64,000 nt of DNA from Physcomitrium patens (lineage: Eukaryota > Streptophyta > Bryopsida > Funariales > Funariaceae): assembly GCF_000002425.4 (NCBI RefSeq), contig NC_037263.1, forward strand, positions 8,879,673 to 8,943,672, written 5' to 3'. Both the position numbers and the translations under genes were made by a program. Under the pieces are notes generated by a model. That model did not search any database, was not told the origin of the DNA, and worked only from the letters and a program-made list of their open reading frames with translations. Positions 1,060-63,067 of this stretch are shown one piece after another. Position 1 is the stretch's first letter. Each line of letters begins with the position of its first letter.

Positions 1060-1063
1060 CCGG

Positions 1064-1692
1064 TTTAGCGTTCTGCTCTAAAATGATATGATGCTCACAG
1101 ACTTACCGGAAATATCTTTTAAATCATCATAAGTCCAAGCAAAAGCAGATTTATGATGCAAGAAAAATTCGATCTAACCGGTCAACTCTTGTTCTTTAAT
1201 ACCTTTATAGACCTTAATTGTCCGAAGTTCTACTGTGGTCGCCAAGTTGATAGTTTGATATAAAGGTACAACGGTGATGTTCTGTTTCAATTCTCGCGCT
1301 GATTTAAAGTCAGTCGTTAAATTCGACATGTATAAAGTACTAAATCCTATATCCAGGGCACTAAAATGGTGCACATCATACTTGGTCATCCAATCAGTAC
1401 TAACATAATCCAAGTTTTCCGAGTCTGTCAGGTATATCAAGTACTCCCCCAGACCTCCACATTGGTATACTACTCCAGGGTGTAGTGCTGCCTCCATGGG
1501 CACCTCCGTAATTGGTGCTACTGCGTCGTCATCATAGCTAAGCTCATCGTTTGACGTTAATTCAGATGCTGTCAATTGAGACTCTCCGTGATAGTGTACT
1601 GGGTACATTTGTAATACCATTTTGTCTTCGCCCTTGCCAATTGTCAAAGTATCCCGACCCCAATCATTCTTGGCCTTTGTTTGATAAAGCCA
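1064..1692 (-). pseudogene. T3 pol: protease-RT connector (Tat/Athila-like)
   Basis: Minus-strand coding remnant, longest open part 1174-1647 (157 codons). It corresponds to the connector between protease and reverse transcriptase of Ty3/gypsy pol. Near its end the reading contains HHKSAFAW followed by TYDDLKDI, the stretch normally found just before the RT domain. The same protein is recognisable in T2 (53618-54175) and T1 (10373-10920). The acidic middle (residues ~30-45) is poorly conserved between copies. It is cut off at 1063 by LTR-A. Catalytic function is not expected. Confidence 0.7.
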
Positions 1693-1695
1693 TGA

Positions 1696-1947
1696 TCATC
1701 CCAATAAAATTGGATATGATAAAGTCAAACATTGTAACCGAAAGATGATATAGTCGATTTCATATGCAATATCGACAATCATAGTTTGAACACTCCGTAA
1801 GATATCTATTGGTTTAACCCGGCTATGATCTGCCATCCGTAATACCAATGTCATGGGTATTAAGTGTTCCAAATCTAAAGCATCCATTGTATCAGCGTTC
1901 ATTAAATTGACACTGGAACCACCATCTACCTGAATACCCAAGATCAT
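1696..1947 (-). pseudogene. T3 aspartic protease domain
   Basis: 83-codon open segment with DGGSSVNLM at its N-terminal end, the retropepsin active-site pattern (D-[ST/G]-G) of Tat/Athila-like elements, followed by the hydrophobic ILRS...YIIFRLQ region typical of the second half of the fold. It would process the Gag-Pol polyprotein. T1 has the same domain at 10094-10333 (DGGSSINLM), but in T2 this exact segment is deleted. It lies between the gag tail (1948-2294) and the RT connector, in the usual gag-PR-RT order on the minus strand. The frame is open, but the flanking reading frames are broken. Confidence 0.8.
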
Positions 1948-11010: not shown

Positions 11011-11892
11011 TTCCCTTTTAGTGAAAGAGGAATTGGATGAACTTCTTGACGTGGATTTTATTTATCCTGTTCCGCATAATGCATGGGTGTCGCCAATCAT
11101 GATGGCCCCGAAGAAGAATAGAAAAATCAGGATATGTCAGGATTTTCAAAAGTTAAAGGTGGCTACTAAGAAGGATTATTTTCTGTTACCGTTTACAGAC
11201 AGTATTTTGGACGTAGTGGCCAAACATGAATGTTACTCATTTTTGGATGGATTTTTGGGATATAATCAAATTAAAATTACCAAAGAGGACCAGTTGATGA
11301 GTATGTTTACCACAGATTGGGGTACATTCGCCCATAAAGTAATGCTATTTGGATTATGTAATGCCCTAGCTACTTTTCAATGGATAATAACAAAAGCGTT
11401 TCAATATTACCTACGTTTATCTATGGAGATATTTCTGGACGATTTTTATATATTTAGCACAATAGCTGAACATTTAGCATGTCTGGATAATTATTTGAAT
11501 CAATGCGATAAGTTTGGAATATCTCTAAATTCGAAAAAGTGTCAATTTGGCATACCATCGAAGAAGCTATTGGAATACATTGTCTCTGTTGAAGGTATCG
11601 CTATGGATCCCGATAAAGTTACTTGTATATTGGATTTATCAAAGCTAGATATGGTGTCGGGCGTGCGTGGTTTCATCGACCATGTCAGCTACTATTGGTA
11701 TTTTATTGAATCTTTTGTGGTTATTTGTCAATCGTTAATCAACATGTTAAAGAAACCTCCATCAAATGGATCTAGCCCAATATGGACTGAAGACTGTACT
11801 TTTGCATCCGATGAATTGAAATGGAAATTAGTATCTGCCCCAATTCTTGTAATATTTTGTTGGACAAAACTGTTTCATGTTTATGTGGATAC
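11011..11892 (+). pseudogene. T1 reverse transcriptase and start of RNase H
   Basis: Open for about 290 codons before LTR-B. Visible Ty3/gypsy RT blocks in order: KEELDELL..DFIYPVP, MMAPKKNRKIRICQDF, YSFLDGFLGYNQI (first catalytic Asp region), the DWGTFAHKVMLFGLCNALATFQ block, MEIFLDDFYIFS (the YxDD box as FLDD), then the connection CQFGIPSKKLLEYIVS..GIAMDPDKV and the RNase H beginning FHVYVD. The reading is broken inside the first RNase H motif by LTR-B at 11893 and resumes at 13228. This is the longest intact RT of the Tat/Athila group in the window. It would copy RNA to DNA in the particle. Confidence 0.85.
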
Positions 11893-13227
11893 TATCGTAT
11901 TACGTGCTTTCCTGCTCGAGAACGCACCGGGCGTCTGGCTGTAGAAGGTAGTATGGAGATTCGCCGATAGTCAAGCAGTCTATCAGTTTTGACTGCTGGA
12001 ATATAAACGACTGCAACAATGTACCGTAAATCTATACGGATGCTCTTCGACTGCTTGTTGAAGTCCTTTTTGTCCCAGCCGGTAGGTCTCTAGACGTTAC
12101 AGAGAACCCCGAACAATCCAAACTGTTAATCTTCAATATCGCTTTGTACTTACGATCTTGTATCCGTTGACTGTCTTGTTAGATTAATCCAATAAATTTC
12201 ATTCACTCCGCATACTCAATCCTATAGACACCCTTTTAATCCTTCAATCACAGACGTAACTCGATTTCACAAAATAGTCAAGAGTATTCAAACCCACTTC
12301 ATTAAAAATCCCGATTCACTATTATAATACTGACTTCAGCAGCGATTGCCTCAGCCTTCCTAAAACTCTACGAAGAAGAAAAATCCAAATTCTCTGTCTT
12401 TCCTTCCCCGACCCGAAGCATGAAGCTCCTCTCTCTCTAATCCCTTTGATCTTCAAAAACCTCCAATTAAAACCGAACTAGTAACCTTGCAAAAGCTTGA
12501 AAACTAGCTCCCTCCCAATTCTCAGAGAAAAAAAAACCCCCCCTCTTCAAAACTATATCCCCCCTAACCTTATCCTCTGAATTTCTTCAATCTTCCATCT
12601 TAGATCCGGAATTGGCTCCCACCGTCAAGCTTGGATCCAAAATTGGCTCTCCCCGTCAAAGCTTTCTCCTCCGTTTTTACCTTTAAGAAATCTATTTACC
12701 AAAAACAACGTTCCCTGAAACGGCACAGAGAACAGGACAGCCTGAAACAGAATCGAACCCCGTAATCGGGACCACATCGAGTCGCCCGACCAATTCAGGT
12801 CTCATATTGGATAAGAGTCCAATAGTAACCTGGATGTTCCCGTAATTGGGTCAAATTTTTCCTCGCGTTGGATTGGCTAAGATCCGTAGTAAGACCTGGA
12901 TTTCCCGTAATTAGACTGCATTGGGTTGACCGACCAATTCAGGTCTCATATTGGATAAGAGGACCCGGATTGGATTCTCGAAATCGGATCCAATTGGCTC
13001 TTCGAACCCGTCGTGTGAATTGGTCCTTCTCTTCCTGTTGACTCCCGTTATTGGAATCGAATGGAGCATTTCAGTATACCCCGGCTGACTGTAACGGAGT
13101 GACTGAACCTGACCACTCAGTATTTGCACTGGAGTTGGTCGATGCTCCCAATATTCGAGGTAACTGAATATTAATAAAATTCCCCTTTCTTTTTATTTTC
13201 ACTGTATACTCGTGTTACAACACGACA
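11893..13227 (-). mobile_element. Solo LTR-B of CG family
   Basis: 1335 bases reading TATCGTATTACGTG...ACAACACGACA (first TG mutated to TA). It is homologous to both LTRs of CG-F and sits in the RNase H coding sequence of T1. Flanks are ATAC (11889-11892) and ACGC (13228-13231), which differ by two transitions at the central CpG; with ACGC taken as the original, the T1 frame reads through without a break. Orientation is minus because CG elements with this LTR (CG-F) have minus-strand genes. The part 12740-13130 is related to Tat/Athila gag. Confidence 0.85.
12740..13130 (+). repeat. Captured Tat/Athila gag-derived segment inside LTR-B
   Basis: On the plus strand this part runs parallel to the T3 gag tail (2330-2700) and the T2 gag tail (60200-60570): shared landmarks are CCGTAAT.GGGACC, CAGGTCTCATATTGGATAAGAG, GACCTGGAT..., GTAATTGGGTCAAATT, TGCTGACTCC-like and GAATGGAGCAT. 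The same segment is present in the CG-F LTRs (18610-19000, 22270-22650) and, inverted, in 17000-17320 and 39560-39870. In LTR-B one block (CCGACCAATTCAGGTCTCAT) is doubled. Confidence 0.7.
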
Positions 13228-13508
13228 ACGCGTCCAATGTTGCTATTGGATCCATTCTCAGTCAAAAGGATGAAAAAAGATTAGATCATTCCATATATTA
13301 TGCGAGCCAACAATTCATTGTTGTAGAACAAAATTATAATACTATCGACTGAAAAGCCCTTGGAATGATCTATTCTGTACAGAAATTTTTCCACTATCTA
13401 CTTGGATACCCATTTGTGTTCCACATTGATCATGATGCGCTTAAGTACATGATAAATAAACCTCAATTCAGTGGACGAATTGCTTGATGGGTGTTACTTC
13501 TCTAAAAA
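13228..13508 (+). pseudogene. T1 RNase H (continued after LTR-B)
   Basis: Readable with stops as SNVAIGS.LSQKDEKRLDHSIYYAS, ALGMIYSVQKFFHYLLGYPFVFHIDHDALKYMINKPQFSGRIA, i.e. the Ty3/gypsy RNase H core with its DHDALKY block. It joins in frame to FHVYVD before LTR-B. Stops are at TGA (S/T..D*KALG) and TGA after RIA, the latter where relatives have W. Confidence 0.75.
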
Positions 13509-14035
13509 TTGAACTTTACGATTAACGTTCGACTTGACAAGAAACATGCCAATGTGGATCACTTATCCCATTTATCTAATATACTGGATAATGAGCTAAT
13601 AAACAATGTTCTTCCAAACGTACAACTATTCGCTATGGATGTCATTACACCCGAATATGGTAAATTGATCCAATATCTAACATTTAAGACTTTTCTAATT
13701 TCTTATAATGAAAAATTAAAGAAGCATCTGATTTTAAAAAGTGCACCGTATACCATGATTGGAGATGCCTTGTACAAACAAGGGCAGGATGGAATTTTAT
13801 GTCGCTGCATCTTTCAAAATAAATTTCGTACGATTTTGAAAGGATGTCATTTGGACAGTTATGAAGGACAATTTGCAGGTGATAGCACCGCACGTAAGGC
13901 TTTAATGGCTGGATATTGGTGGCCAACAATGTTTTCGGATGCACACCAATATGTTCATCATTGTGATCCTTGCCAACGAATTGGTTGCCCTACTCAAACT
14001 TCTACAATGCTATTGGTACCAATTTTCGTACACGT
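13509..14035 (+). pseudogene. T1 integrase N-terminal zinc domain
   Basis: Open from 13509, first with the RNase H-integrase linker (HANVDHLSHLSNI), then the zinc-binding domain around residues 115-160 of this piece (CHLDSYEGQFAGDSTARKALMAGYWWPTMFSDAHQYVHHCDPCQRIG, one His position changed) and the start of the core (LVPIFVH). The open frame runs artificially into LTR-A; the true continuation is at 16103 and, in the duplicated copy, at 38654. Confidence 0.8.
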
Positions 14036-16102
14036 TGTCGTAATGTATAAAGGCTTGCTTGAGAATGCTCCGAGCACCTGGCTATAGAAGGAAGAATAGA
14101 AATTACGATAATAAAATCCTAATTATAATAGAATACTAACAATGCTCTAATTATAATAGAATACTAACAATACTCTAATTAGACTATAATAATAGTAATC
14201 AAACGTAATCAAATTCAAAAAAACTCAAAGAAATTTCAAACAAACAATAAAATTCTTAAAGAAAAATTAGAATGATTACAAATTTTACTCAAATATATGT
14301 CAATTCAACCTTAATTTAATTCTAGTAAAAACCCTATTCAATTTCACTCAACTTTAGACCAAACCTAATTAAATCTTAAACCCTAATAAATCCTAAATTC
14401 TAATTCAAATCCTAAACAAATCTTAAATTAAACACTATTCCAAATCCTAAATCCTAAACCAAACCCTAATCCAACCCTAAATCCTAAACCAAACCTTAAA
14501 TCAAATCCTAACCAAACCTTAATCCAAACCCTAATCCAAACCCTAAATCAAATCATAACCAAATCCTAAATCTTAATCCAAATCCTAATCCAAACCCTAA
14601 TCCAATCCTAAACTCTAATCCAAATCCTAAACCCTAAACCAAACCCTAATCCAACCCTAAACTCTAATCCAAATCCTAAATCCTAAACCAAACCTTAAAT
14701 CAAACCCTAACCAAACTCTAATCCAAACTTTAATCCAAACCCTAAATCAAATCCTAACCAAATCCTAAATCCTAATCCAAATCCTAAACCGAACCCTAGC
14801 CAAATCCTAACCAAATCCTAACCAAATCCTAAATCAAATCTTAACCAAATTCTAAATCAAACCCTAACCAAACAATAAACTCTAATCCAAATCCTAAATC
14901 AAATCCTAACCAAATCCTAGTCCAAACTCTAATACAAACCCTTAAATCAAATCCTAACCAAATCCTAAATCCTAATCCAAATCCTAAATCCTAATCCAAA
15001 CCCTAATCCAAACCCTAAACCGAACCCTAGCCAAACCCTAATCCAAATCCTAGTAATTCCTATGACAGATTTAAACCTCAATATCTAATGAATAAACCGT
15101 TGATCTCAATTCAAAATTTGTGCACTTCTTAAATATCAAGTTCAAAACAAGCAAAAAAATTTTGAAAAGGATCGGAGTTACCAAATTGAAGAAACCCTCA
15201 AAAATGTGTTCACGTGTTAGCCCACTTCCTTCTCTAATCTTGTTGCCAACCTTCTAGAGCCAATTTCTCCTCTTTGCGCCGTTCGATTGGTTTCAAATTT
15301 CTCATGGACATATAAAAACAAGTCTAATATTCTCTCACATAAGTTTTACTTCAATCCAACTAGTAGATTGCATGAAAACTTAAAAACCCTCACTAGACCT
15401 AAAACTCTACTTTCTGAGACCTTGACTCACTTAAACCTCAATATCTCTCAGTTCAACCGTTAGATCAAGCTCAAATTTACAACATGTATTCAACACAACT
15501 ATAACCATAAACCCAAAAAAATTCAACCATAGATCTGCAACAAAACTCTCGAAATCACTCAAAACATAAACCCTATTTTATTTTATAAAACCCAAGTCAT
15601 CCGAAAAAAAACTCAACTTTGCAAAGCTCTTACAAATTCATATCAACTCCAAATCACCCAAAATTAATGCTTATAGAAACCCTATTTAATCTTCTCTCAA
15701 ACCCCACTCTCCGATCTGCCAAATAATCCCGGAGTCGTCGTCGAGACTCGGTTTTGTGCCTTAGGGTCTGATTTCGACCCTGGTTCATAACCAGCCCTCT
15801 CTGGGTATCAATATCTAGTTTTTCTAAGTAATTTTTGTTTTTAGAATTTACTCTTAACTTTCTTCTAAATATTCCTATATCATTTATTTTTCCAATCTAC
15901 TTTGATTTGCCTTACTTATGGTACTACAAAGTAAGTAGAAGTCACCTTTCTAAAAGGCAGCAGTGATACCTTTTAATTTTTCTACCCCTTTGGCTATTAA
16001 CTATATTTCTAAAATAATTTGTTCTAATACTTTGAACTAAGATCTCTTAAATTATAATAATCTCCACACTCTTTCACCTATTAATCGTGTTACATCACGA
16101 CA
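14036..16102 (-). mobile_element. Solo LTR-A of CG family (hybrid, former CG-E)
   Basis: 2067 bases, TGTCGTAATG...CATCACGACA. Flanks ACGT (14032-14035) and ACGC (16103-16106) are a 4-bp duplication with one transition, and the T1 integrase frame is continuous across it. The right part (about 15300-16102) looks identical to the right LTR of CG-E (36664-38653), while the left part with the array differs clearly. This is expected if left and right LTRs of one CG-E copy recombined to a solo LTR. Confidence 0.88.
14340..15060 (-). repeat. CCCTAAA-like degenerate array in LTR-A
   Basis: About 700 bases of units such as CCAAATCCTAA, CCAAACCCTAA and CCCTAAA in irregular order. The homologous arrays at 36960-37610 and 62450-62840 differ in length and order, so the array changes by slippage or unequal exchange faster than the rest of the LTR. 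Confidence 0.88.
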
Positions 16103-16906
16103 ACGCACCATTCAAAAAATTGACTTTGTAGGATCCATTGTACCTATCTCTTGAAATGGAAATAAACATTATATTCTCGTAGCCACCGATTATGTGACCA
16201 AATGGGCGGAGGCCATGGCAACAAAAACTGATAATGTCAATACTATAGCAACATTTTTATATGAGAACATTATCACTTGTTTTGGTTGTCTGAAAGAATT
16301 GGTTAGTGATCGCAAAACACATTTTATTAATGCAACAATTGAAGCATTAACAGCAAAGTATGAGATCAAGCACTGCAAAACTATACCTTATCATCCATGA
16401 GCCAATGGACAAACAAAAAAGACCAACAGTATCCTATGTAAGATCTTAACAAAGACTATTTCATGAGTGGGAACCGATTGGGACACTAAATTATTTGCAG
16501 CTTTATGGGTGTACTGTACTACGTATAAAGTAACTATCAATGTATCATTGATAGTTACTATCAATGTCATTTCAATTGGTATATGGTCAGGAGGTAATTC
16601 TACCAATTGAATTAGAGGTCCAATGTTTACGAATTGCGTTGGATGAACGTATGGGAGACAAAGAATCTCTTGAATATAGGTTAGTCCATTTGGAGAAATT
16701 GGATGAAGCTAAGGCTATGGCTCTCTTAATCATGGAAGCTACATAGCACTGCAGAAAGAGTTATTATGATAGTAAGTTACGATTGAAATATTTTATGCCC
16801 AATAATCTAGTGCTACTTTATGATAGCCGCTTTAATAACTTTCCTAATAAATTTCAAGTACGATGGCATGGGCTATATCGGATGGTGGAAGGTTTCCCTA
16901 ATGATT
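16103..16906 (+). pseudogene. T1 integrase core and C-terminus, copy 1
   Basis: Readable with stops: APFKKIDFVGSIVPIS, then YILVATDYVTKWAEAMAT (first catalytic Asp region), CFGCLKELVSDRKTHFIN (second Asp in SDR), YHP.ANGQT (near the third acidic residue, which reads K where E is expected), VYCTTYKV, and a C-terminal LRLKYFMPNNLVLLYDSRFNNFPNKFQVRWHGLYRMVEGF (SH3-like GPY type). Stops are at 16154 (TGA), 16397 (TGA), 16465 (TGA) and others. Nearly identical to 38654-39457. A palindromic insertion lies at 16526-16562. Confidence 0.8.
16526..16567. repeat. Inverted-repeat insertion in T1 integrase
   Basis: GTAACTATCAATG, three bases, then CATTGATAGTTAC, then CTATCAATG again. The same structure is present at 39077-39118. 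Without about 24 bases of it the integrase frame would read VTINVIS, so it is a templated inverted duplication that arose before the large tandem duplication. Confidence 0.75.
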
Positions 16907-17465
16907 CCGTTGTCGTGTTGTAACACGTCTATATGATGAAAATATAAATAAATAAGATTTATTAATATTTAGTCACCTTGGATATTAGAAGCGACGGCCG
17001 ATTCCAGTGCAAATATTGAAATGTCAGGTTTAGTCACCCCATTACAGTCGGTCGGGGCATACTCACCAATAACAAAATACTCCATTCGATTCCAGTAACA
17101 GGAGTTAGCAGGAAAGGAAAGGACCAATTCAACGTCGGGTGAGCCTAGTTCGGAGAGCCAATTGGATCCAATTTCAGAAGACATCTAATCCAGGTCCTAT
17201 TATGGGTCTCTTATCTAGTATGAGACCTGACTTGGTTGAGCAACCCAATGCAGTCCAATTGTGGGGCTTCGATTCCATTTCAGGCTGTTGTGTTCTTTGT
17301 GCCGTTTTAGGAATGTCCTTTCTATAAAAGGATCTCTTAAAGGTAAAAATGGGGGGGAGAAAGTGCGGTGGGTTGTTCCAATTCGGGGAGTCCAAGGCGG
17401 AAGAATATGATCTTCTCAAGGTAAAAGGGGAAGGTAGGTTAAGAAATGGATTTTTCGAGAATCGG

Positions 17466-19103
17466 TGTCCTATTACGTGTTGTCTTGTTCAGGAATACAC
17501 TGGGTATCTGGCTATGGAAGGTATAGTTGTTTTTGCAAATAACAAAGAAATCCTAATAGATTTTATCCATGTATGAAGAATATAATTGAAATATCAATTT
17601 CCAAGTATTTAAAAACACTCCTCATAGTCATTTTAACCATAAAATATTCCAATTGCTTTATTTCTTTTATAATTAAGTTGTTTTTGTTTTTCTTAACAAG
17701 CCCTAACCCTAGCCAATGAGCTTTGACAAGTTGTAAATTTTGATCCAACTGTCCACTTAGTGTGAAATTTTGCACCCAAATACCAGTATAAGCCTTCTAT
17801 ATGCTCAAAAAATTTCAGCCCAACCCAACTTACAAATTGCAAGAAAACGCCCAAAAACCGCACTGATGACACTCGGCCGCAACCTTGAAATTTGATGTAG
17901 AAACTCCAGAAGTGATTTCTCCTTTGTCAACCGTTAACTCTAGCTCAAAATTGAATAGCTACTTGATCTCCAAATCTTCTATTACCAAGCCAAAAATTAC
18001 GTCGATCCAATCAGTAGATCTTCAGATATCACAGAAACCCTATCCAACCCTAGACTGCCAACTTCCGACAACCCTTTGTACTAAAACCCAGATATCTCTT
18101 GATTTCATTGTTAGATTAACACAAATTCTTGTATACACTTAGCACTCCCAACTATCCAGACAATATCAAATTTTGATCTATAGATGCTACACGACTTGCA
18201 CAAACCGATTGAGAATGCAAACCATCAATGTTTTATATAAAATGTGAAACACCAAAATAAACATTGATTTTGAGTAGCGATTGCTCTCCCTTCACAAATC
18301 CTAATGAAACCAAATTAGTGACCTTGAAAAGAGCTTGAAGCTAGCTCTTCGATCCAAAAACCCCATCTGAAAAAAAATCCCCTCATTTCTTAACCTTCCT
18401 CCCCTTTAACCTTAATTCTCCCCTCTTTCAAACCCTAGCCTCTGAATTTCTTCAATCTTCCGTCTTGGATCCGGAATTGGCTCTTTCCATCTTAGATCTG
18501 GAAGTGTCTCTCACCGTCAGAGCTTTTTCTTCCGTTTTTACCTTTAAGAGATCTTTTTACCGAAAACAACGTTCCTTGAAACGGCACAGAGAACAGGATA
18601 GCCTGAAACAGAATCGAAACCCCGTAATCGGGACCACATTGAATCGCCCGACCAATTCAGGTCTCATATTGGCTAAGAGTCCAATAGTAAGAGCCGGATG
18701 TTCCCCTAATTGGATCAAATTGATCCTTCGCGTCAAATTGGCTGAGGCCCGTAATAAGACCTGGATTTTCCTGTAATTAGACTGCATTGGCTTGCCCGAC
18801 CAATTCAGGACTCATATTGGGTAAGAGGACTCGGATTGGATTCTTGAAATTGGATCCAATTCGCTCTTTGAACCAGGCTCATCCGTCGTGTGAATTGGTT
18901 CTTTCCCTTCCTGCTGACTCCCGTTTTTAGAATCGAACGGAGCATTTCAGTATGCCCCGGCTGATTGTAACGGGGTGACTGAACCTAGCCTCTCAGTATT
19001 TACACTGGAATTGGTCATTGCTCCCAATATTCGAGGTAATTGAACATTAATAAAAATCCTCTTCCTTTATATTTTCACAGTATACTCGTGTTACAACACG
19101 ACA
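17466..19103 (-). mobile_element. 3' LTR of CG-F (LTR-B type)
   Basis: 1638 bases, TGTCCTATTACGTG...ACACGACA. Highly similar to 21086-22750; the visible length difference comes mainly from an extra GGATC.GGAATTGGCTC unit in the other LTR (22085-22155). Confidence 0.92.
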
Positions 19104-19141
19104 TCCTCCGATATGTGCCAAATTCAGTACACCATTATTCT

Positions 19142-20005
19142 TTATTCAATATCAAAAATCCATGTATTCATTTTGTACAAGTAAATTGGAAACATCCAAC
19201 TTTGTACATGACCAAACCATTGGCGAGGTACAAATTTTGAAATAGAAAGATTTAATTGAAACTTCTTCCTTATGGCTACATACATCATGCTTGCATCTTT
19301 TTTCTTGTTCCTTTGATTCCATGCTTGATTTAAGACGTCCATATAATCCTTAAATCCATTGCCCATGTCTTTATATTTGTAGATTTTTAGATTTTCAACC
19401 TTTGAATTCCACACTTCATGATGAATCTTTTTCTTATCAAAATCCAATTATGCCCCCAATACATGTGCATTATCCATGTAACCTTGATCTTCATCCAAAA
19501 GATTAGTACTTACAATTAACTTGATTAAAGCCATTGATTTAGTACCTTTACCTTTGATTCCATAATCTTCTTTCGCCACATTATCTTGTAAAATATGTAT
19601 CATTTCTTCTTGAATGTATCCTTGTAAAACATCCTTCATTTCTTCTTGAATGCATCCTTATGAAACATCATAACCTTGTGTTATCTCAATATGTTGTATT
19701 ACTTCATAATATTGAAAAATTTCATAGCCTTGTGAAACCTCATGTTCTTGAAAAATCTTACATCTTTCACCATAATCTCTTTTACCACCATGAGATGTTC
19801 CATCCAAATTGCCATCATCCACTTGCATAAACATATTCAATGTAGAATAGCCATAATTTTCATCCTTATTGTTATTAATTTCTAAATCCTTGACTTCCAT
19901 ATTGCCTTCAATTTTTTTGATATTTTGACCTTCCATAGTAATAATTTGATCAAAGTCTTTGTTCTTTCCTTCACCATCCTTGATAAAAGATCCACTTTCT
20001 TTCAT
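19142..20005 (-). pseudogene. CG-F second ORF, unknown protein
   Basis: One frame of about 288 codons with two stops (19658-19660 and 19448-19450), both TAA where CAA would restore the repeated neighbouring sequence pattern. Not recognised. It is acidic at the N-terminus, has a middle with short internal repeats (QGYEIFQYYEVIQ.., ITQGYDVSQGC-IQEEM.., LQGYIQEEM) and a basic C-terminal part (HHEVW...KNLKIYKYKDMGNGFKDYMDVLNQAW). No protease, RT, zinc knuckle or integrase motif is visible. It occupies the place of pol after gag. It could be a captured host sequence or a rapidly evolving accessory gene. Confidence 0.55.
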
Positions 20006-20832
20006 TTGCGAAAAATTGGCTCCTCCTTCGAAGTCCTCCAGTTGCTATTCCATTTCTCTTTTTTCAAGATTAATCCTTTGTATTGATAAAGATGATATAG
20101 AAGCCAAAGTAGAAGATTTCTTAGACCATATTCCAACTCCTTTAGCTTGTGCTCTTTGTTGCTTTGCTAAAAGAATTGTTGCTTCTTTCAACTCTTCCCA
20201 ATTGTTAGTACAACCACTCTCCGTAGACTCATCTACAAGAAGTATAAAAGTTTATCTCCCATGGCATCATCAAGACCATTTAAAAATAATTCTATTTTTA
20301 TAGCATCCAATGATTGTCTCTCTGAGGATGACAGTTGATAAAACCTCTTTTCAAATTCTTTCAAGAATTCATAAAGATCCGTATGCATGCCTGGTTGTAA
20401 TTCTATCCAATCCAAAAACTGTCGCTTGGTAATCTTATCTTCATTTGCATCAATAAATTCTTTCTTCAAAAGTTCTTGAAATTTTGACCATGTCTCCACA
20501 CCCCTTTCAAGTAATCTCTTTACCTTTCTATAAATTCCAAGTTCAATAGCCAAATAAAAGCTTGAAATCATCTTTGCCTCAGGGATTTGGCATGTCTCCA
20601 TCTCATATGTATAAACTTCTAAAAACTTAGTGATGTTGCATCCGTTAAACCTCCCAAATTTGTTGAAAATTCCTTGTAATGCCTTTGTGATATCCCTTTC
20701 AATTGCTTGTATCTTTTGTTGTTCTTCCATGAATATACAAAAAGCCTCAAAAAACTCTTTAACATTTGGTCCATCCAAAGTATTCAACCTATCTAAAGAC
20801 TTCATTGAAATATCTTCCATTTTCTTCCACAA
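20006..20832 (-). CDS. CG-F gag (capsid part)
   Basis: 199-codon open frame at 20233-20832 beginning MWKKMEDISMKSLDRLNTLDGPNVKEFFEAF; a frame-shifted tail reaches 20006. The arrangement FGRFNGCNITKFLEVYTYEME...ISSFYLAIE...VETWSKFQELLKKEF...F..W..........F.KRF..L...ER is that of the CG-family gag: compare CG-C DQFDGRNISKYLKYYSWEMELNKV and CG-E WIEKPKKD..AIELLRKFEKKYSSLSKKERQLLDPSKVELFLQA. It shows the helix-rich retrotransposon capsid but no zinc knuckle in the open part. It would form particles; other proteins would have to come from another element. Confidence 0.7.
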
Positions 20833-21063
20833 TGTTAAAAAAATATCCCTAAAAATACTCCAATAAATAACTTATGATACCTCAAAATGCCCCAAGATGT
20901 CTATAAGCCATAATATAGTCCATAATAATCCAAATATCACCATTGCTTTTCAAAATATCCCCCAAAGCTCCAAGTCTTCCAAAAACTCTAAAATCAACCT
21001 TGTCATCTTGCACCATCAATCCAAATAACCACATACAAAATCCAATACCTTCCACCCCAAACG

Positions 21064-21081
21064 TTCACGTCAGAATCACCA
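21064..21081 (-). other. Primer-binding site of CG-F
   Basis: TGGTGATTCTGACGTGAA on the minus strand, four bases inside the 5' LTR. Same site and same 4-base spacing as in CG-E and CG-C. Donor tRNA not assigned. Confidence 0.7.
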
Positions 21082-21085
21082 CTTA

Positions 21086-22750
21086 TGTCATATTACGTGT
21101 TCTCTTATTCAGGAATACACTGGGTATCTGGCTATGGAAGGTATAGTTGTTTTTGCAAATAACAAAGAAACCCTAATAGATTTTATCCATGTATGAAGAA
21201 TATAATTGAAATATCAATTTCCAAGTATTTAAAAACACTCTTCATAGTCATTTTAACCATAAAATATTCCAATTGCTTTGTTTCTTTTATAATTAAGTTG
21301 TTTCTGTTTTTCTTAACAAGCCCTAACCCTAGCCAATGAGCTTTGACAAGCTGTAACTTTTGATCCAACTGTCCACTTAGTGTGAAATTTTGCACCCAAA
21401 TACCAGTATAAGCCTTCTATATGCTCAAAAAATTTCAGCCCAACCCAACTTACAAATTGCAAGAAAACGCCCAAAAACCGCACTGATGACACTCGGCCGC
21501 AACCTTGAAATTTGATGTAGAAACTCCAGAAGTGATTTCTCCTTTGTCAACCGTTAACTCCAGCTCAAAATTGAATAGCTACTTGATCTCCAAATCTTCT
21601 ATTACCAAGCCAAAAATTACGTCGATCCAATCAGTAGATCTTCAGATATCACAGAAACCCTATCCAACCCTAGACTGCCAACTTCCGACAACCCTTTGTA
21701 CTAAAACCCAGATATCTCTTGATTTCATTGTTAGATTAACACAAATTCTTGTATACACTTAGCACATCCAACTATCCAGACAATACCAAATTTTGATCTA
21801 TAGACGCTACACGACTTGCACAAACCGATTGAGAATGCAAACCATCAATGTTTTATATAAAATCCGAAACACCAAAATAAACACTGACTTTGAGAAGCAA
21901 TTGCTCTCCCTTCACAAATCCTAATGAAACCAAACTAGCGACCTTGAAAAGAGCTTGAAGCTAGCTCTTCGATCCAAAAACCCCATCTGAAAAAAAATCC
22001 CTTTATTTCTTAACCTTCCTCCCCTTTAACCCTAATTCTCCACTCTTTCAAACCCTAGCCTCTGAATTTCTTCAATCTTCCGTCTTGGATCCGGAATTGG
22101 CTCCTTCCATCTTGGATCTGGAATTGGCTCTTTCCGTCTTAGATCCGGAATTGACTCTCACCGTCAGAGCTTTTTCTTCCATTTTTACCTTTAAGAGATC
22201 TTTTTACCGAAAACAACGTTCCTTGAAACGGCACAGAGAACAGGATAGCCTGAAACAGAATCGAAACCCCGTAATCAGGACCACATTGAATCGCCCGACC
22301 AATTCAGGTCTCATATCGGCTAAGAGTCCAGTAGTAAGAGCCGGATGTTCCCCTAATTGGATCAAATTGATCCTTCGCGTCAAATTGGCTGAGGCCCGTA
22401 GTAAGACCTGGATTTTCCTGTAATTAGACTGCATTGGCTTGCCCGACCAATTCAGGTCTCATATTGAATAAGAGGACTCAGATTGGATTCTTGAAATTGG
22501 ATCCAATTGGCTCTTCGAATCAGGCTCATCCGTTGTGTGAATTGGTCCTTTCCCTTCCTGCTGACTCCCGTTTTTGGAATCGAACGGAGCATTTCAGTAT
22601 GCCCCGGTTGACTGTAACGGGGTGACTGAACCTAGCCTCTCAGTATTTGCACTGGAATTGGTCGTTGCTCCCAATATTCCAGATAACTGAACATTAATAA
22701 AAATCCTCTTCCTTTATATTTTCACAGTATACTCGTGTTACAACAAGACA
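21086..22750 (-). mobile_element. 5' LTR of CG-F (LTR-B type)
   Basis: 1665 bases, TGTCATATTACGTG...AACAAGACA, pair of 17466-19103, followed by TCGG. Confidence 0.92.
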
Positions 22751-23577: not shown

Positions 23578-23815
23578 TTCTAGAACCTTCTAGAAAGAAG
23601 TCTCTAGAAACTTCCAGAAGATTTCTTTAATATTCTCTTAGAATATTCTTCAAAGATTCTCTAAAGATTCTTTGAAGATTCCCTAAAGATTCCCTTAGAA
23701 GGCTCTAGAAGATTCTTAGAATATTCTAGTAGATTCTAGGAAATTACTTGAGAAGCTTCCTAGCTCTTGGGTAGTTGCTCGAGAAGCTTCATAATTCTTG
23801 GGAAGCTTCTTGATG
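23578..23815 (+). promoter_or_regulatory. Cluster of heat-shock-element-like motifs in U3
   Basis: 23578-23595 is a perfect alternating TTCnnGAAnnTTCnnGAA. 23607-23619 reads GAAnnTTCnnGAA. Further GAAnnTTC pairs lie at 23641-23649, 23709-23715, 23719-23727, 23752-23759, 23782-23789 and 23802-23809. In the 3' LTR the same cluster is at 29641-29880, where 29670-29687 is a perfect four-unit array. This is the binding pattern of heat shock factors. Confidence 0.7.
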
Positions 23816-23842
23816 CGCTTCCTTAGAATCATAGGCCAATAG

Positions 23843-24025: not shown

Positions 24026-24059
24026 ACCTTTATCTTAATATCAGAGCTGAATCCTTCTT

Positions 24060-36659: not shown

Positions 36660-36663
36660 AATA

Positions 36664-39457: not shown

Positions 39458-39461
39458 CCGT

Positions 39462-54574: not shown

Positions 54575-54578
54575 ACGG

Positions 54579-55911
54579 TGTTGTATGGTATGATTTGATA
54601 TCTGAGAATATACTAGGTATCTAGTTGTAGAGAGTGTAGCTTAAACCTTTATATGAATCTTATGTTTGCCTCCCAAAACTCCTTCTTTGCATAAAATTCA
54701 AAATATAACAAAACCCCTTTAAAACATATTTTTTCTGCGAAGGATTTTCTTGTCTCGAACTTTAAAAAATCATAACTCTTGATCTAGCCGTTCAATTTGT
54801 CTCAAATTTATAGAATAGGTAGAATTCACCTTGAAATTTTATCACAAAAAAAAACCAATTTCAAATTCACTCCCAATCTTTTGATATCTAAGAAGTCTTA
54901 GCAGACGCTCTAAACCCTAATTTACAAGAATCCAAGCACTATTTTCTTAATCTCTCAAGAATCCAATACTTAAATTTCATGAAACTTATGCACAAAGTTT
55001 ACTTACATGAAATTACACATTTCCTAAAATTTTGAGCCAAGACCTTGTCAAATTGCTTAAGATATAGCTCAAGAGACAACCACTTATAAATCGGGTTACT
55101 TACTACCCTTAGATTGCATGTGCTGACTTCAAAATCCAATAACTCTTTCATTTTAACTTGGAATCCAGCAACTAATATAAGAAAAGTATAGCCGCAAAAG
55201 TGCTCTCTTCAATTGCAATCGCCGATCCTCAATTGCTATTTGTAAGCGTACGTTATGCCAAAAAGAGTGACAGTAGCTCCCAAATCAATACCTTAACTTT
55301 GAGCACTTGTATCTCTTTCATATAAACTCCAAACTATACAAAACTTGTATCATAATCATAGCCAAAAACTTAAACCTTTTGATCCTAGCCTTCAAAACTC
55401 GAATGGCTCCAAGAAACTAACTCTAATTTCTAATATGGCCTCAGGCCGCCTCCTCAAAGCATATTGATCATGATTTTTAACCAATAAGAATGGAGATTTT
55501 TATCATTCATCTCCATTCATCTATATTAGTGCCTTAATTACTCCCTTTGCTACCAAAACCCTTCTTCAATCCTTTTTCTTATGAGATTTACATAATTTAT
55601 GTTCTAAATATCAAATAAAAGAACCAAAATAAGTTTCCAAAGGTCACCAATGTCTAACAAAGGTGACTCTAAATATTTAGAAGTTACTATCAACCAAAAC
55701 CAATCTTAAAATCCACTATCAATAAAGAAATTAAAGTTAAACAAATTCTATAGTAATCTTTTTAAACAACCTCTTTTCAAGGTAATAATCAAATTATATT
55801 CTACAACCAACTAAAATCTACTAACACGGCTATCACCATGTTACTTAGTAAATTATATATTAAGTACATAATTACATTATTTTCATATAGTAGCCGAACC
55901 AAAATACGACA
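54579..55911 (-). mobile_element. 3' LTR of CG-C (LTR-C type)
   Basis: 1333 bases, TGTTGTATGG...AAATACGACA. No telomere-like array and no captured gag, but its start shares the ...TAGGTATCTAGTTGTAGAG block with LTR-A and LTR-B. Confidence 0.9.
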
Positions 55912-56246
55912 TCCACCCCTTCTAAACTTGTGTATCCTTCGGTATGTACCAAGAAGAACCAAAGTTGTGGTTGGTGTCATAGCACCTTCTCAATATTATC
56001 TTTTTTTTTTATCCATGTCTTCCACTTCTTCATTTGTAAAGAAATATATGTCTTCTCTAATACCTTCATGAATTCCTTGTTGCCTTATTCAATGCCGCAT
56101 ATCAATTTTATCCTTGTATTTCGAGCTTATTTCTTCCAAAAATCTTTCAAACATGTCTCCATATATATACTTGCTATTAAAGCATCTTTATCAAGCACAT
56201 CTACTCTGTTTAGGTCTTTTTCAGATTTTTGCATATCTCTTTGCTC
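55912..56246 (-). other. CG-C remnant between protease and 3' LTR
   Basis: Readable in part on the minus strand (EQRDMQKSEKDLNRVDVLDKDALIASIYMETCLKDFWKK...FMKVLEK), not recognisable as RT or integrase. It may be a counterpart of the unknown ORF of CG-F. Confidence 0.4.
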
Positions 56247-57223
56247 TCATTTTTGTAAGTCATTAAGTTGTGTTTGTGTAACAAATCTATTCCTAGATAA
56301 TTTTACAACACCTATATAAAAGATATTATTCTTTCTATGCGAGAATACTTTCTTTGATGTACTACTATATTCCGCTCTAAGTAGTACCCTACAAAAATCT
56401 TTAAATTTCTCAGTAATCTTTGGTAATGAATCACTTTGTAGATAATCCCGATTGCGCTCATAGTTTGCAGATACTATTAAAAATTGCACTATCTTTATTC
56501 CATCTTGACTTTTAATACGAACACATGCTGATCTGTCATCCAAAACCTTGGTCTCCATCCTCATAGCTCTAATATATGGTTGATCAAGAATCACTGGATA
56601 TGAAGTAGTGTCTTGAATAAAAAAAATTGTTTTGTGGTCACTTCTCCAACTTTTATCTTCACATTGAGACAAGTACTATAAAGATCTCCTCATGTATTAT
56701 TTGCTGCCCAAATCACCCATCCATGATTAATATCAATGGGCCACCTTCCACGTTTATAGACTCCTTTTGACATAATATTAATTTCAGATCCATGGTCAAT
56801 GAGAGCAATTACTGGTTCTACCAAGTCTTCTATTTTTACTAAAGTCTCTGTGGTGGCTCTTGTCCAATTTTCCTTGGTATAGTGTCCAGGGCCCTTGTCA
56901 TCATCCTTGTATTCATCCAAATCAAATTGTCCCTTTTTATTGATACAACATTCTACTAATTCATGTTCCTCTTCTTCAGTCAAGATTGTATCCAAAGTAT
57001 TAAATATAGCAGATTCTCTTATTAATTGCCTCTTTTGCTTAATCGTGTCAATGCTGACATCATGAAACTTTTTCTTTGCAATGCCCAAAATTTCTCGTAG
57101 AGTAAATTTAATTTCGACATTTAATACTCTTTCTTCCAACACTCCTTTCAAATTTGTGGCTTCCTCTGATTGTAGCTTATAAGTAACATGCTTACTCTTC
57201 TCTTTGTCTTTATCAACTTCCAT
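56247..57223 (-). pseudogene. CG-C protease region
   Basis: Pieces 56690-57223 and 56247-56672. Contains LVEPVIALIDHGSEINIMSKGVYKRGRWPIDINHGWVIWAANNT, the CG-family retropepsin (compare CG-E EPVVALIDDGSEVKLM), followed by TTSYPVILDQPYIRAMRMETKVLDDRSACVRIKSQDGIKIVQFL, the C-terminal half seen in CG-E at 34190-34426. The N-terminal linker 57050-57223 also matches CG-E (VLEERFLSGKIEFIIGEILGI). A likely inactive protease due to interrupting stops. Confidence 0.75.
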
Positions 57224-57519
57224 CCTTTCTTCTCATTTCTCTTGTGGCAATGGTACTTTTTCAGGGTGCGATGTCAATGGCCTAACCCTAGATGGTCTAT
57301 TAGCTTGTGGTATAGGTATTTTTTTATTTTGTATTGTTTCTACATACCTTTGAGATCTCTTCTTGTTGGTTGGCTCTTCAAAACTTTTCTTATATTTCAT
57401 TTCTTTTCCTTTTTATTTCCATTAGAGCTTCATGTTGGGACTTTGCCAAATAAGCATATACAGACATAGTATCTACAAGATCATGCCATCTTGTAGCATT
57501 TCTAATTATTGTGGCTGTA

Positions 57520-58788
57520 TTAAGTAATTTCTACCTTGTTGTTTTTTTTTTATTCATACTGATAATAGCATGATTCCATAGATCTCCTATGTTTACATAC
57601 TTGTCAAAAATATCCTCCTTCTTTCTTATAGCCTCAATGCCATAAGTAATAGCCTCTCTTGATTCCATAGCCTGTTGAGATAAATGCTCTTCCAAAACCT
57701 TCTTCATCCTTCCTTTTTCAAAATTGGTTTTGAGAAACTCATCTATATCTTGCAACATAATTTTTCCATCTTTTCATAAAATTACTCCCTCTTGCAGAAT
57801 ATCAGCAAAATCTCCACACTCCCTTCGAGGATGCTCTATACTATCATACCAAATACATCGTTGTATATATCTTAGCTTTGGTATAGATTTGCTCTCAAGT
57901 AATCCTTCTTTCTCCTCTAACTTTGTCAATTTGATTTGTAAGTCTTTCATTCCTTTTACCAACTCATCAATTCCATCTTTCTGTGGTGGAACTGTAGACA
58001 TAGGAATTAGAATAGTACTTATTGGTATAGTAGGTTCTAGCAGTTGCCTACAAGATATTGTAGTTGGTGGAGGTCTAATCTCTTGCCTTACTACCACCTT
58101 ACCCCTCCAATACTCTCTTTTGGCAAATATATCCACAGCTTCAAAGACTTTCTTCTAATCAATAGAAAGTGCGTTGTCCTCTGTATTATCCTCCAATAGT
58201 AATTCCAATTTCTTTTGTAAATCATTGCCAACTGATTGAAGAAATAATTCCACCTTATCATTTTCAAGTATAAACTTTTCCACTCGAGACAATTGAAGAA
58301 ATTATCTTTTAAATTCACAAAATAACTTTGTTGCAACCAAACCCTTGTTGAATTTATTGACTCATTCCATAAATGATTTTCTTGTCATCCTTTTTTGCAT
58401 CTTCCAAATAATACTCTTCTTTTAGCTAAAGGATAAAATCCTCCCATTTCTCTCCATGAGTTTTAATAATGCCCTTTATATGCTCACGAAGCTCTAGTAC
58501 AACTACAAGCTCAAATGTAAGGATCATATCTTTCTCTGGTACTTTATTGAGCTCCATCTCCCAAGAATAATATTTAAGATACTTGGAAATATTTCTTCCA
58601 TCAAATTGATCCAATAAACCAACAACAGATTGCAAGGCTTTAGTAGCCATTGCCTCTTTGCATTCCAGTGCTTGCTATTGTTGCATAAAAAGTGCAAATG
58701 CTTGAAACATTTGAATTGTAGCAGGATCAAGTTGCAATGGAGATTCCCCAATGCAATTCCTCCTACCACTTCCTTGCCCTCCTTCCAT
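57520..58788 (-). pseudogene. CG-C gag
   Basis: Start MEGGQGSGRRNCIGES at 58788, as in CG-E. 58426-58650 capsid part (MATKALQSVVGLLDQFDGRNISKYLKYYSWEMELNKV). 57774-58136 tail with a zinc knuckle CIWYDSIEHPRREC, in which the second Cys is Tyr. 57531-57758 basic-acidic tail. Several stops between. Confidence 0.75.
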
Positions 58789-58834
58789 AATAGAAAGCCA
58801 AAATATTTCTTCAAACCTCTCTACTTCAGAAATT

Positions 58835-58852
58835 ATCACGTCGAGTTCACCA
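58835..58852 (-). other. Primer-binding site of CG-C
   Basis: TGGTGAACTCGACGTGAT on the minus strand, four bases inside the 5' LTR, same site as CG-E and CG-F. Confidence 0.72.
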
Positions 58853-58856
58853 AGTC

Positions 58857-60189
58857 TGTCGTATGGCGTGATTTGCTATCTAGAAATACACTGGGTATCT
58901 AGTTGTAGAGAGTGTAGCTTAAACCGTTATATGAATCTTATCTTAGCTTCCAAAAATTCCTTTATTTTGCATAAAACTCAAAATATAACAAAATCCCTTT
59001 AAAACATATTTTTCCTGCGAAGGGTTTTCTTGTCCCGAACTTTAAAAAATCATAACTCTTGATCTAGCCGTTCAATTTGTCTCAAATTTATAGAATAGGT
59101 AGAATTCACCTTGAAATTTTATCACAAAAAAAAACCAATTTCAAATTCACTCCCAATCTTTTGATATCTAAGAAGTCTTAGCAGACGCTCTAAACCCTAA
59201 TTTACAAGAATCCAAGCACTATTTTCTTAATCTCTCAAGAATCCAATACTTAAATTTCATGAAACTTATGCACAAAGTTTACTTACATGAAATTACACAT
59301 TTCCTAAAATTTTGAGCCAAGACCTTGTCAAATTGCTTAAGATATAGCTCAAGAGACAACCACTTATAAATCGGGTTACTTACTACCCTTAGATTGCATG
59401 TGCTGACTTCAAAATCCAATAACTCTTTCATTTTAACTTGGAATCCAGCAACTAATATAAGAAAAGTATAGCCGCAAAAGTGCTCTCTTCAATTGCAATC
59501 GCCGATCCTCAATTGCTATTTGTAAGCGTACGTTATGCCAAAAAGAGTGACAGTAGCTCCCAAATCAATACCTTAACTTTGAGCACTTGTATCTCCTTCA
59601 TATAAACTCCAAACCATACAAAACTTGTATCATAACCATAGCCAAAAACCTAAACCTTCTGATCCTAGCCTTCAAAGCTCAAATGGCTCCGATAAAATAA
59701 CCCTAATCTCTAATATGGCCTCGGGCAGCCTCCTCAAAGCCTATTGTTCATGATTTTTGACCAATAAGAAAGGAGATTTTCATCATTCATCTCCATTCAT
59801 CTGTATTGGTGCCCTAATTACTCCTTTTGCTACCAAAACCCTTCTTCAATCCTTTTTTTTATAAGATTTACATAATTTATGTTCTAAACACCAAATAAAA
59901 GAACCAAATAAGTTTTCAAAGGTCACTAATGTCTAACAAAGGTGACTCTAAATATTTAGAAGTTACTATCAACCAAAACCAATCTTAAAAGCCATTATCA
60001 AAAGAAAATTAAAGTTAAACAAATTCTATAGTAATCTTTTTAAACAACCTCTTTTCAAGGTAATAATCAAATTATATTCTACAACCAACTAAAATCTACT
60101 AACATGGCTCTCACCATGTTACTTAGTAAATTATATATTAAGTACATAATTACATTATTTTCATATAATAACTGAACTACAACATGACA
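58857..60189 (-). mobile_element. 5' LTR of CG-C (LTR-C type)
   Basis: 1333 bases, TGTCGTATGGCGTG...ACAACATGACA; pair of 54579-55911. Long stretches (e.g. about 59040-59580) look identical to the other LTR, so the insertion is young relative to T2. Confidence 0.92.
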
Positions 60190-61415
60190 ATAGAACACCT
60201 TGAAACAAAATAGAAGCCTCCATAATCTGGACCTCATTGGATTGCCTAATCGAGTCAAGTCTCATACTGGGTAAGAGGCCCGTAATAAGACTTGGATTGG
60301 ATGTCTCCATAATTGGGTCAAATTGGCCCTTTGCATCAAGCTCATCCAAATGCTGAATTGGTCCTTTTCTCTTTTGCTGACTCTTGGTAAGAATGGCTTG
60401 GACACATTCTACCCGATTTACTAAAGAATCTTGAAGACCTTAATTAATCTCCTCCATTTTTCCTTGTTTTTGGATCTGCTGATCCCGATTATTGAAATTG
60501 AATGGAGCATTATATTGCTGATAAGTATGCCCGACTGCTTGTAATTTCTACACACTGGTACATAATCGTCACTCGCTCTAGGATTGGAACATTCACTAGC
60601 ATAATGAACAATCTGTCTGCAATAGAAACAATGAAGTGGTCTCCTTGCACTCCCATCAAGCATAGTGGGTATCTCTATTGATATATACCTACTAAGCTTG
60701 TTCCATATAGGGCTAGAAAATGATCCTGGCTGTCCCGTTGGTATGGAGGGTACTTGGTTTGATGACGCCAGTGGAGCATATTGTTGATACCTCTCTTGCT
60801 CCTTTACGTAGTTCTGGGGGTTTGATGCAGATTCCTGATTAAAATTGAAACTTTGAAAGTTATTGAATGCTCTATTTTATCGATTAGATCGATTTTCATT
60901 CCATCCAAACATATTTTTTGATCGAACTTGATTGACATACCAGTGACTTGGTGGAATTATGGTTTGATTACTGAATTGTTGTTGCCTTTGCTAATTCCAA
61001 TAATTAGCTGTTAAGTGCTTTCTTCTGCAAAATGTACATTGACCCATCATTTATGAGGATGAAAGGCATTCTGTTACCAAATGACCATAGCCCTTACAAT
61101 TACTGCACCAAACATTAGTCCTAGTATTGATAGGCTTTTACCTTTTCTTCTTATCTTTGGCCATATTGACGGCCATTTCTTCCATTTTCTTCATCGGGTT
61201 CAATAACAAGGTTTTATTGGAATCTTTTAGTGCTAGTATTATTAATAATTCTGCCACAGTTAATGCTTGTTGTTGATACAAAAAATAGGGAGCATACATT
61301 GTTGTCACGTTCGGTGGTATAGCTTGCAATAGAGTGACATTAACTGGCCCCTGAATATTGGCATTGGAATTGGCCACTATTTCTAACCTCCGTAGATAAC
61401 TACCTATTGATCCGT
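60190..61415 (-). pseudogene. T2 gag, C-terminal half with zinc knuckles
   Basis: Open pieces 60421-60663 (nucleocapsid: RPLHCFYCRQIVHYASECSNPRASDDYVPVCRNYKQSG, CX2CX4HX4C intact) and 61138-61464 (INIQGPVNVTLLQAIPPNVTTMYAPYF..QQALTVAELL). The stretch 61040-61110 holds a second knuckle reading CSNCKGYGHLVTEC-like with changes. Equals T3 2300-3560. The N-terminal half is on the other side of LTR-A, at 63064-64000. Confidence 0.8.
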
Positions 61416-63063
61416 TGTCATGATGTAATATGGATAACAAGTGAAAGGGTGAAGAAAATACCATGTTTTTAGAATCTCACTTCATAAATATTGTAGCAAA
61501 TTATCTTGGAAAAATAGATATTAGTCAAAGGGTAGAAAAATTAAAAGTGCTAATGCTGCCTATTTACAAATTATGCTTCTATTTACTTTGTAAGGCCATA
61601 AATAAGACAAAACAAGGTAGATTAGAAAAATAAAGGATATAGACATATGTAGGGAGGAGTTAAGAGTGCAAATTAGTAAAAATTACCTCAAGAAGACGAA
61701 AGTTGATACCCAAAGAGGACCGGTTATGAACCTGGGTCGAAATCAGACCCCAAGGCACAAAACCGCACTCTGATGGCGAATCAAGGATTCTTTGGGAGAT
61801 CGGAGAGCTGAATTAGGGGGCAGACTTGTAGAGGGATTTTTGAGAGGTAATTTCGTATCATTTGGATTAGTATTGGATTTTTGAAGGATTTTCAAAGTGA
61901 GTGATGATCTCTGTGAATTTAGATCTTTGAGAAATAAAACTGGTTTATAAATTTTTGGATTTCCTGATTTTTGTAGTATTTTTACGGGTGAAAATTTAGA
62001 GACGTATTTTTATGTTTGTTGTAAATGTGTACAAGAGATTTGAGATTAGTCAAATGGCTAGATCAATACATATGAAGGTTTTTGTGGGCTAAGATCTTGG
62101 GATTTAGGGTTTTGAAGACCAGTAAGGTTTTCTTAGATATCTAGTAATCTACCATTTGGATTGGAGAGATTTTTGGTTTTATTAGTAAAAGACTTGATTT
62201 CCTATATGCAAGTAAAATTTAGAAGCAATCAAACAGTGGAAAAAGGAGATATTGGTGTTGGAAGTTTGGCATCAGATTGGAGAAGGAGAGGTCGGCCGAC
62301 ATCCAAGCGGAATTTTGAGGTCATCAACTAATTGGTAAGTGAAATTTTCTTCAAAATTTGTGTGCTAGTTGCTAACTTAAACTCTAAGAAGTATGCAAAT
62401 TTTGAATTAGAATCGACTGTTCAATCTTTAGTTATTTAAATTTCAAATTTATGATTAGGATTTGGTTTGGATTAGGATTTGATTAGGATTTAAGGTTAGG
62501 ATTTGGTTAGGATTTGGTTTAGGGTTTAGGATTTGATTAGGATTAGGATTTGGTTAGGATTTAGTTTAGGATGTAGGATTTGGTTAGGATTAGGGTTTGG
62601 TTAGGATTTAGAGTTAGGATTTGATTAGGATTTGATTAAGATTTGTTTAAGATTTGATTAGGGTTTGTTTAGGGTTTGGAATTGATTAGGATTTGTTAGG
62701 GTTAAGATTTGTCTAAGATTTGATTAGGATATGTTTAGGATTTAGGATTTGTCTAGGATTTTATTAAAGTTGGATTAGGATTAGAGTTTGGTTAGAATTT
62801 AAGGTTTATTTAGATTTTTGTTAGGGTTTGACTAAGTTTTTTTTAATATTCTTTTATATTTTTTTAAGATTTCCTTTTGTTTCTTTTATAACTTCAATAA
62901 AATTTAATTGAGCTTGCTTAATATTTGATTATGATTGTTAATATTGAATTATAATTTCTCTATAATCCTATTGGAATGTTAGGATCTTTTGTTGTAATTT
63001 TCTTTTACCTTCCACAACTAGGTGTCCGGTGCATTCTCAAGCAAGACTTCACGTAATACGACA
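61416..63063 (+). mobile_element. Solo LTR-A of CG family in T2 gag
   Basis: 1648 bases, TGTCATGATGTAAT...GTAATACGACA. Flanked by CCGT (61412-61415) and CCAT (63064-63067); the uninterrupted gag in T3 at 3552-3570 (GATTCGTTCCAAG) shows that these four bases are the duplicated target. Confidence 0.92.
62450..62840 (+). repeat. TTTAGGG-like degenerate array in LTR-A
   Basis: GGATTTGGTTAGGATTTAG-type units, shorter and even less regular than the arrays at 240-775 and 36960-37610. Confidence 0.8.
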
Positions 63064-63067
63064 CCAT

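Follow-up and report, generated by a model that had tools for sequence, protein, structure and literature searches.

Physcomitrium patens carries long terminal repeat (LTR) retrotransposons, referred to here as the CG family, whose 4-bp target duplications are centred on CG almost without exception. We characterized them in a 64,000-nucleotide stretch of the moss genome ("the window"; NC_037263.1, positions 8,879,673 to 8,943,672), in a 264-kb block around it, and by searching the genome (470 Mb, 101 contigs). The elements are very probably members of Phygy whose integrase, working with a 4-bp stagger, accepts near-exclusively targets with a central CG, with a weaker bias to outer bases of the form V-CG-B. 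The finding is already known in kind, since an NCGN target preference has been published for Phygy of P. patens in one sentence of Neumann et al. 2019 (PMC6317226). Beyond that sentence, we add the near-obligate strength of the choice, the uninterrupted paralogous sites, solo LTRs, pol-less elements, and the outer bases.

CG-family LTRs start with TGTC and end with GACA, with a primer site (TGGTGAACYCGACGTGA-like, by eye) directly after the 5' LTR and a purine tract (GAGGGGGTGGA-like) just ahead of the 3' LTR. These two features set LTR orientation, which has no effect on the counts because NCGN is symmetric. A preliminary description of the window had reported seven insertions whose 4-bp duplications have CG at the centre of one copy or both; all target sites quoted there (13/13) read as given when re-read from the window letters. 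For the insertion at 1060, for which one flank was known, the missing flank outside the window proved also to be CCGG, at the far end of a solo LTR spanning window-relative positions -774 to 1059. Of window dinucleotides, 1.73% are CpG (observed/expected 0.56), and the chance of seven in seven is therefore ~6e-11 even with either copy allowed to count, in line with the earlier judgment that chance was unlikely. LTRs 14036-16102 and 36664-38653, within a duplicated segment, represent one common insertion, as do LTRs 16911-30114 and 39462-40834; the preliminary description counted each once. Target sites were alike for two-LTR elements, pol-less elements, and solo LTRs.

Most of these sites also carry CG where the element is missing. 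The flanks of six insertions were joined by script and compared with the 264-kb block, and the 1060 site was compared with its paralogue by eye. The nearest paralogue contained CG for five of the seven insertions (1060, CCGG; 16911, CCGT; 17466, TCGG; 54579, TCGG; 61416, TCGT). The closest paralogue of 11893 has ACAC at the target, and three more distant ones have ATGC, ATGC, and ATGT; each of these words can arise from ACGC or ACGT by transitions. Another paralogue of 61416, as close as the first, has CTAT, and more distant paralogues of 16911 have CCAT and CTAT.

For a wider sample, we searched with a 301-base LTR piece, which gave 40 scored matches of 2449 candidates. Two were the window's own; the other 38 loci were fetched, 26 being readable at both outer flanks and 12 on one side. 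The duplication was 4 bp long, as flank match reached 0.84 at k = 4 versus 0.17-0.23 at k = 2, 3, 5, 6, and 7 (26 pairs). The two 4-mers were identical in 12 of these pairs, differed once in 11, and differed twice in 3; central CG occurred in both copies of 13 pairs, in one copy of 11, and in neither copy of 2 (24/26 in at least one copy). Loci readable on one side gave CG in 10 cases, CA in 1, and TA in 1.

Employing LTR-end patterns, we obtained 6461 matches genome-wide for one end (one mismatch allowed) and 3316 for the other (exact pattern), against 3 and 1 for reversed-pattern controls. Flanks were listed from the first 100 matches to each, which lie within the initial 12.9 Mb of contig C1 and belong to a single LTR group; the remaining LTR groups are represented by examples from the window and block. 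The two listings overlap, in part recording opposite sides of identical insertions. The first was filtered from 100 to 58 rows (42 purine-tract rows removed by rule), to 53 (near-identical flanks), and to 52 (one purine-tract-like row, TCCA..., judged by eye), and the second from 100 to 62 (38 primer-site rows) and to 51 (near-identical flanks). Among the matches listed, the 52 independent flanks of the first listing comprised CG 41, TG 5, CA 5, and TA 1, and the 51 of the second CG 40, CA 5, TG 3, CT 2, and TC 1; together, 81 of 103 flanks were NCGN, 19 had TG, CA, or TA, and 3 had another dinucleotide. CG was confined to the exact centre, occurring at other offsets of the listed flanks 0-4 times per ~52, with CpG at 2.0% over 7264 flanking bases. 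Thirteen distinct NCGN words were found at targets. Across 113 half-sites (second-listing flanks excluded), the first base was A in 50%, C in 33%, G in 12%, and T in 5%, and the fourth was T in 42%, G in 30%, C in 20%, and A in 8%. When the listings were paired, with 66 of 100 first-listing rows entered with positions, 11 pairings lay 8.0-8.7 kb apart; 8 had identical NCGN duplications (CCGT, ACGT, ACGG, GCGG) and 3 did not (GCAT/GCGC, TTGT/TCGT, and ACGT/CCGG). Tabulated against background (38 loci and two listings), the earlier proposal of an integrase that picks a central CpG is strongly supported. Separately, LTR ends with one and the same flank (NCRT-ATCAACAACAAGC) occur at six listed places on C1 at ~1.97-2.39 Mb, in both orientations; this is a local repeated segment that spread after one insertion.

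Original choice and later decay were separated using 48 pairs. This set takes 13 of the 20 pairings printed from the second listing, leaving out seven that all have central CG in one copy or both: three from nearly identical copies of a single solo LTR (CCGT/CCAT, CCGT/CCGT, CCGT/TCGT) and four that were nested or doubtful (ACGT/CCGG, CCAT/ACGA, ACGC/TCGG, ACGA/ACAA). It also leaves out three block pairs (124032-130267, ACGA/ATGG; the L021 copy, ACAG/GCGT; -99625 to -91075, GTGT/GCAA). CG was present in both, one, and neither copy of 28, 18, and 2 pairs, against 28.5, 17.0, and 2.5 predicted if every target began as CpG and the two copies decayed independently. The share of targets other than CG is best estimated as 0 (one-sided 95% upper bound 0.062, or 13% from the 26 LTR loci alone). 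Transitions accounted for 19 of 21 central mismatches, bearing out the earlier statement that copies differ mostly as expected from CpG decay. Chance as the source of the central CG is rejected by the window probability and these pair counts, and within the samples taken the published "preference" seems to approach a requirement.

Several observations weigh against so strict a choice. Two of the 26 complete pairs have CG in neither copy (CCTT/CCAT and ATGG/ATGG), and 3 of the 51 second-listing flanks are neither CG nor a transition product of it. Both paralogues of 14036 read AGGC, leaving this site unconfirmed by paralogue; CG is present in both of its duplication copies (ACGT, ACGC). In the block, the pol-encoding copy in L021-L022 has unmatched flanks (ACAG on the left and, abutting an N run, GCGT on the right), five older single-sided ends outside the window (ATGG, TTAT, TTGG, CCAA, TCAA; all transition products) include no CG (0/5), and an LTR pair found by self-comparison (-99625 to -91075; family unchecked) is flanked by GTGT and GCAA.

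Of the other explanations, the one that survives best is that the integrase or a chromatin partner needs methylated CpG, such that the family would seek out silenced DNA and be hidden within it. CpG methylation made strong retroviral target preferences in vitro (Kitamura 1992, cited in PMC11054761), moss transposable elements (TEs) are CG-methylated (PMC6453930), CpG is depleted (0.58) and TG + CA in excess (1.15) in the flanks of the 38 LTR loci, as expected in methylated surroundings, and CG targets decay chiefly by transitions. However, depletion and decay are also expected if methylation postdates insertion or if only insertions in TE islands survive. We regard this explanation as unlikely. 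A bolder version, in which the Phygy integrase absolutely needs CpG, and specifically methylated CpG, so that the host's silencing mark is the landing signal and a Glu at the position of Ala188 in prototype foamy virus (PFV) integrase may read the base pair, is if anything more doubtful. Were it true, silenced DNA would draw in more copies, which would account for stacked insertions like the ones seen in the window. Moss mutants lacking CG methylation are available, the met mutant losing 93% of it (PMC6453930), and in these the question of whether methylation guides integration can be asked.

It is considerably less probable that a flexible central pyrimidine-purine (YR) step suffices, as in retroviruses with 4-bp duplications, with CG just the commonest outcome. 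A central YR preference is general (PMC4422553), and TG, CA, and TA together account for 19 of 103 flanks among the matches listed. Yet CG dominates though it is rarer than TG and CA in window DNA, a non-CG copy is paired with a CG copy in 18 of the 20 pairs that have one, and the 28/18/2 split fits pure decay; moreover, four such retroviruses average a 63% increase in central YR, not near-exclusion (PMC4422553). An artefact, in which CG is part of the element ends or sites were copied from one another, has almost nothing to recommend it: segmental duplication does repeat flanks (near-duplicates removed, 5/58 in the first listing and 11/62 in the second), but the uninterrupted paralogues, which have CG without the element, and the inner LTR edges, which are purine tract or primer site rather than NCGN (42/100 first, 38/100 second listing), contradict it, as does the variety of NCGN words. 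CG belonging to the LTR ends was rejected on the same inner edges.

We assign the CG family to Phygy by its features rather than by tree placement. In the internal region of the broken element at 30624..36663, domain search identified pieces of reverse transcriptase (RT), RNase H, and integrase (two RT pieces and an SH3 piece falling below the Pfam cut-off), and gag and protease were placed by position and eye. This region is 6.04 kb long with coding pieces throughout, interrupted; the two pol-less members differ, and the one at 17466..22750 has no pol open reading frame (ORF) among frames of at least 45 amino acids. Outside the window, between CG-type LTRs, a pol ORF of 827 amino acids (L021:2059-4539) contains RT, RNase H, H2C2, and rve domains and shares 71% identity with the window integrase piece. 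The Ty3/gypsy order RT-RNase H-integrase is thus present, while no chromodomain (PF00385) was found in eight window pieces or in the L021 ORF, which ends before the expected C-terminus, nor in 120 listed of 178 relatives; the family lacks the chromodomain after integrase that marks a chromovirus. These elements match non-chromovirus Ty3/gypsy of the Phygy type, as described in PMC6317226 and PMC6911290, in their 4-bp duplications, NCGN targets, domain order, absence of a chromodomain, and short, mostly coding internal region, and we hold the explanation as a whole with high confidence. In the block, two open pol frames in opposite orientation flank an N run at -63870 to -62000 (window-relative -72461 to -55362); their first 60 residues are identical, reflecting an assembly problem or an inverted pair.

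Integrase relatives (120 listed of 178) include several from the liverworts Riccia sorocarpa and R. fluitans, so this branch extends beyond a single moss. The Riccia integrases are ~57-79% identical over the aligned part, and others lie on many further contigs. Among viral contigs, 30 stretches turned up as possible relatives and none was confirmed.

Elements with 5-bp duplications served as local controls. The preliminary description had assigned 5-bp non-CpG targets (CTACA, CCCAA, GYASG) to the other elements; of these, CCCAA was verified. Our controls comprise three local duplications only, AAACT, CCCAA, and GATAC, with domain search on the CCCAA element only, and the chromovirus comparison draws on the literature besides. 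The GATAC duplication belongs to a Ty3/gypsy element on the same contig (window-relative 137219-143571) with a long frame that appears chromodomain-like by eye.

A mechanism in keeping with the Phygy assignment would have the integrase join the two ends of the cDNA to the target with a 4-bp stagger and accept targets with a central CG, almost without exception, with a weaker exclusion of T at the first base and A at the fourth. The choice would be made in the target groove of the integrase, where a flexible pyrimidine-purine step must kink, and an extra base reading would pick CG over TG, CA, and TA. The groove mechanism leans on retroviruses with 4-bp duplications, in which bending of the target underlies a preference for central YR steps (PMC4422553). 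One integrase family would probably serve the pol-less relatives in trans, and later decay of CG to TG or CA would blur old copies. The position aligned with Ala188 (PFV residue numbering) is Glu in 25 of 27 relatives. In PFV, Ala188 contacts target bases (PMC4422553), and that this Glu might read the CG is a guess. Among solved structures, sequence comparison puts PFV integrase (E 6.6e-17) closest to the integrase of one relative taken by itself, and the Ty3 intasome 7q5b (E 3.5e-89) closest to the relatives' polyprotein profile.

According to Jedlicka et al. 2019, 4-bp duplications are commonest in Phygy, Galadriel, and Bryco and have GC-rich central dinucleotides (PMC6911290). The published Phygy survey covered predicted elements with LTR similarity of at least 95%, a polyprotein region, and no nested insertions, as described in PMC6317226 and PMC6911290; the present analysis differs by taking in old copies, solo LTRs, and members lacking pol, by reading uninterrupted paralogues, and by testing decay across both duplication copies. 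LTR insertions that are polymorphic between P. patens accessions have also been reported (PMC7466625). The earlier suggestion that such an integrase would be unusual for Ty3/gypsy stands for plants, where one source reports variable targets in other lineages and describes LTR elements as mostly without a sequence motif (PMC6317226), but not beyond them, since errantiviruses and ZAM choose palindromic targets: TATA, CGCG, or ATAT in groups of Drosophila errantiviruses (PMC5408687) and CGCGCg in ZAM (PMC2527525). These are likewise of Ty3/gypsy type, and ZAM's targets contain CG; however, ZAM has env and a longer CG-rich motif (PMC2527525), whereas the CG family uses a lone central CG in AT-rich surroundings. 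PFV and Moloney murine leukaemia virus (MoMLV) have in common with the family the 4-bp stagger and central YR step, but their preference is statistical (PMC4422553) whereas that of the CG family is near-exclusive for CG. Yeast Ty3 differs in being described as using tRNA gene start sites via TFIIIB/TFIIIC, with no base motif (PMC2527525). A near-exceptionless need for a single CG in AT-rich DNA makes the family a clean natural system for base reading by an integrase.

Table 1 Insertions, target duplications, and control element in the window (coordinates relative to the window).
Feature	Position	Strand	Remark
Solo CG-family LTR, right part	1..1059	+	LTR starts at -774, outside the window
Target duplication CCGG	1060..1063		Left copy just before -774 also CCGG; uninterrupted paralogue at ~53541 CCGG
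Left duplication copy ATAC (decayed)	11889..11892		Nearest paralogue ACAC
Solo LTR	11893..13227	-	LTR type of the pol-encoding element in L021-L022
Right duplication copy ACGC	13228..13231		
Left duplication copy ACGT	14032..14035		Paralogues AGGC
Solo LTR with internal short repeats	14036..16102	-	Taken as same insertion as the 30259-38653 element, duplicated segment
Right duplication copy ACGC	16103..16106		
Left duplication copy CCGT	16907..16910		Nearest paralogue CCGT
Solo LTR carrying nested insertions	16911..30114	+	Duplicate without them at 39462-40834
Left duplication copy TCGG	17462..17465		Paralogue TCGG
Two-LTR element, LTRs 95% identical, gag-like ORF	17466..22750	-	gag match below Pfam cut-off
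Right duplication copy TCGG	22751..22754		
Control: chromovirus with chromodomain, 5-bp non-CG duplication CCCAA	23539..30075	+	Long open frame
Right duplication copy CCAT	30115..30118		
Broken CG-family element, internal region	30624..36663	-	LTR parts 30259-30623 and 36664-38653
Left duplication copy ACGG	54575..54578		Nearest paralogue TCGG
Two-LTR element, LTRs 95% identical	54579..60189	-	Frames resembling gag and protease, by eye
Right duplication copy ATAG	60190..60193		
Left duplication copy CCGT	61412..61415		Nearest paralogue TCGT
Solo LTR	61416..63063	+	
Right duplication copy CCAT	63064..63067		

In the window, a segmental duplication, about 93% identical, relates 14036-17468 to 36664-40019 and continues to 30218 and 40938. 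At the same site, one duplicate holds a two-LTR CG-family element and the other an apparent solo LTR, and LTR-LTR recombination is therefore visible side by side. In one subgroup, the LTRs contain short internal repeats and are of unequal length (1-780, 14350-15060, 36950-37600, 62450-62830). An older Ty3/gypsy pol (10991-11944, with collinear pieces to ~30203) received at least three successive CG-family insertions; at 10991-11944 it is 24% identical to the CG-family RT, and its named relatives are among bryophytes.

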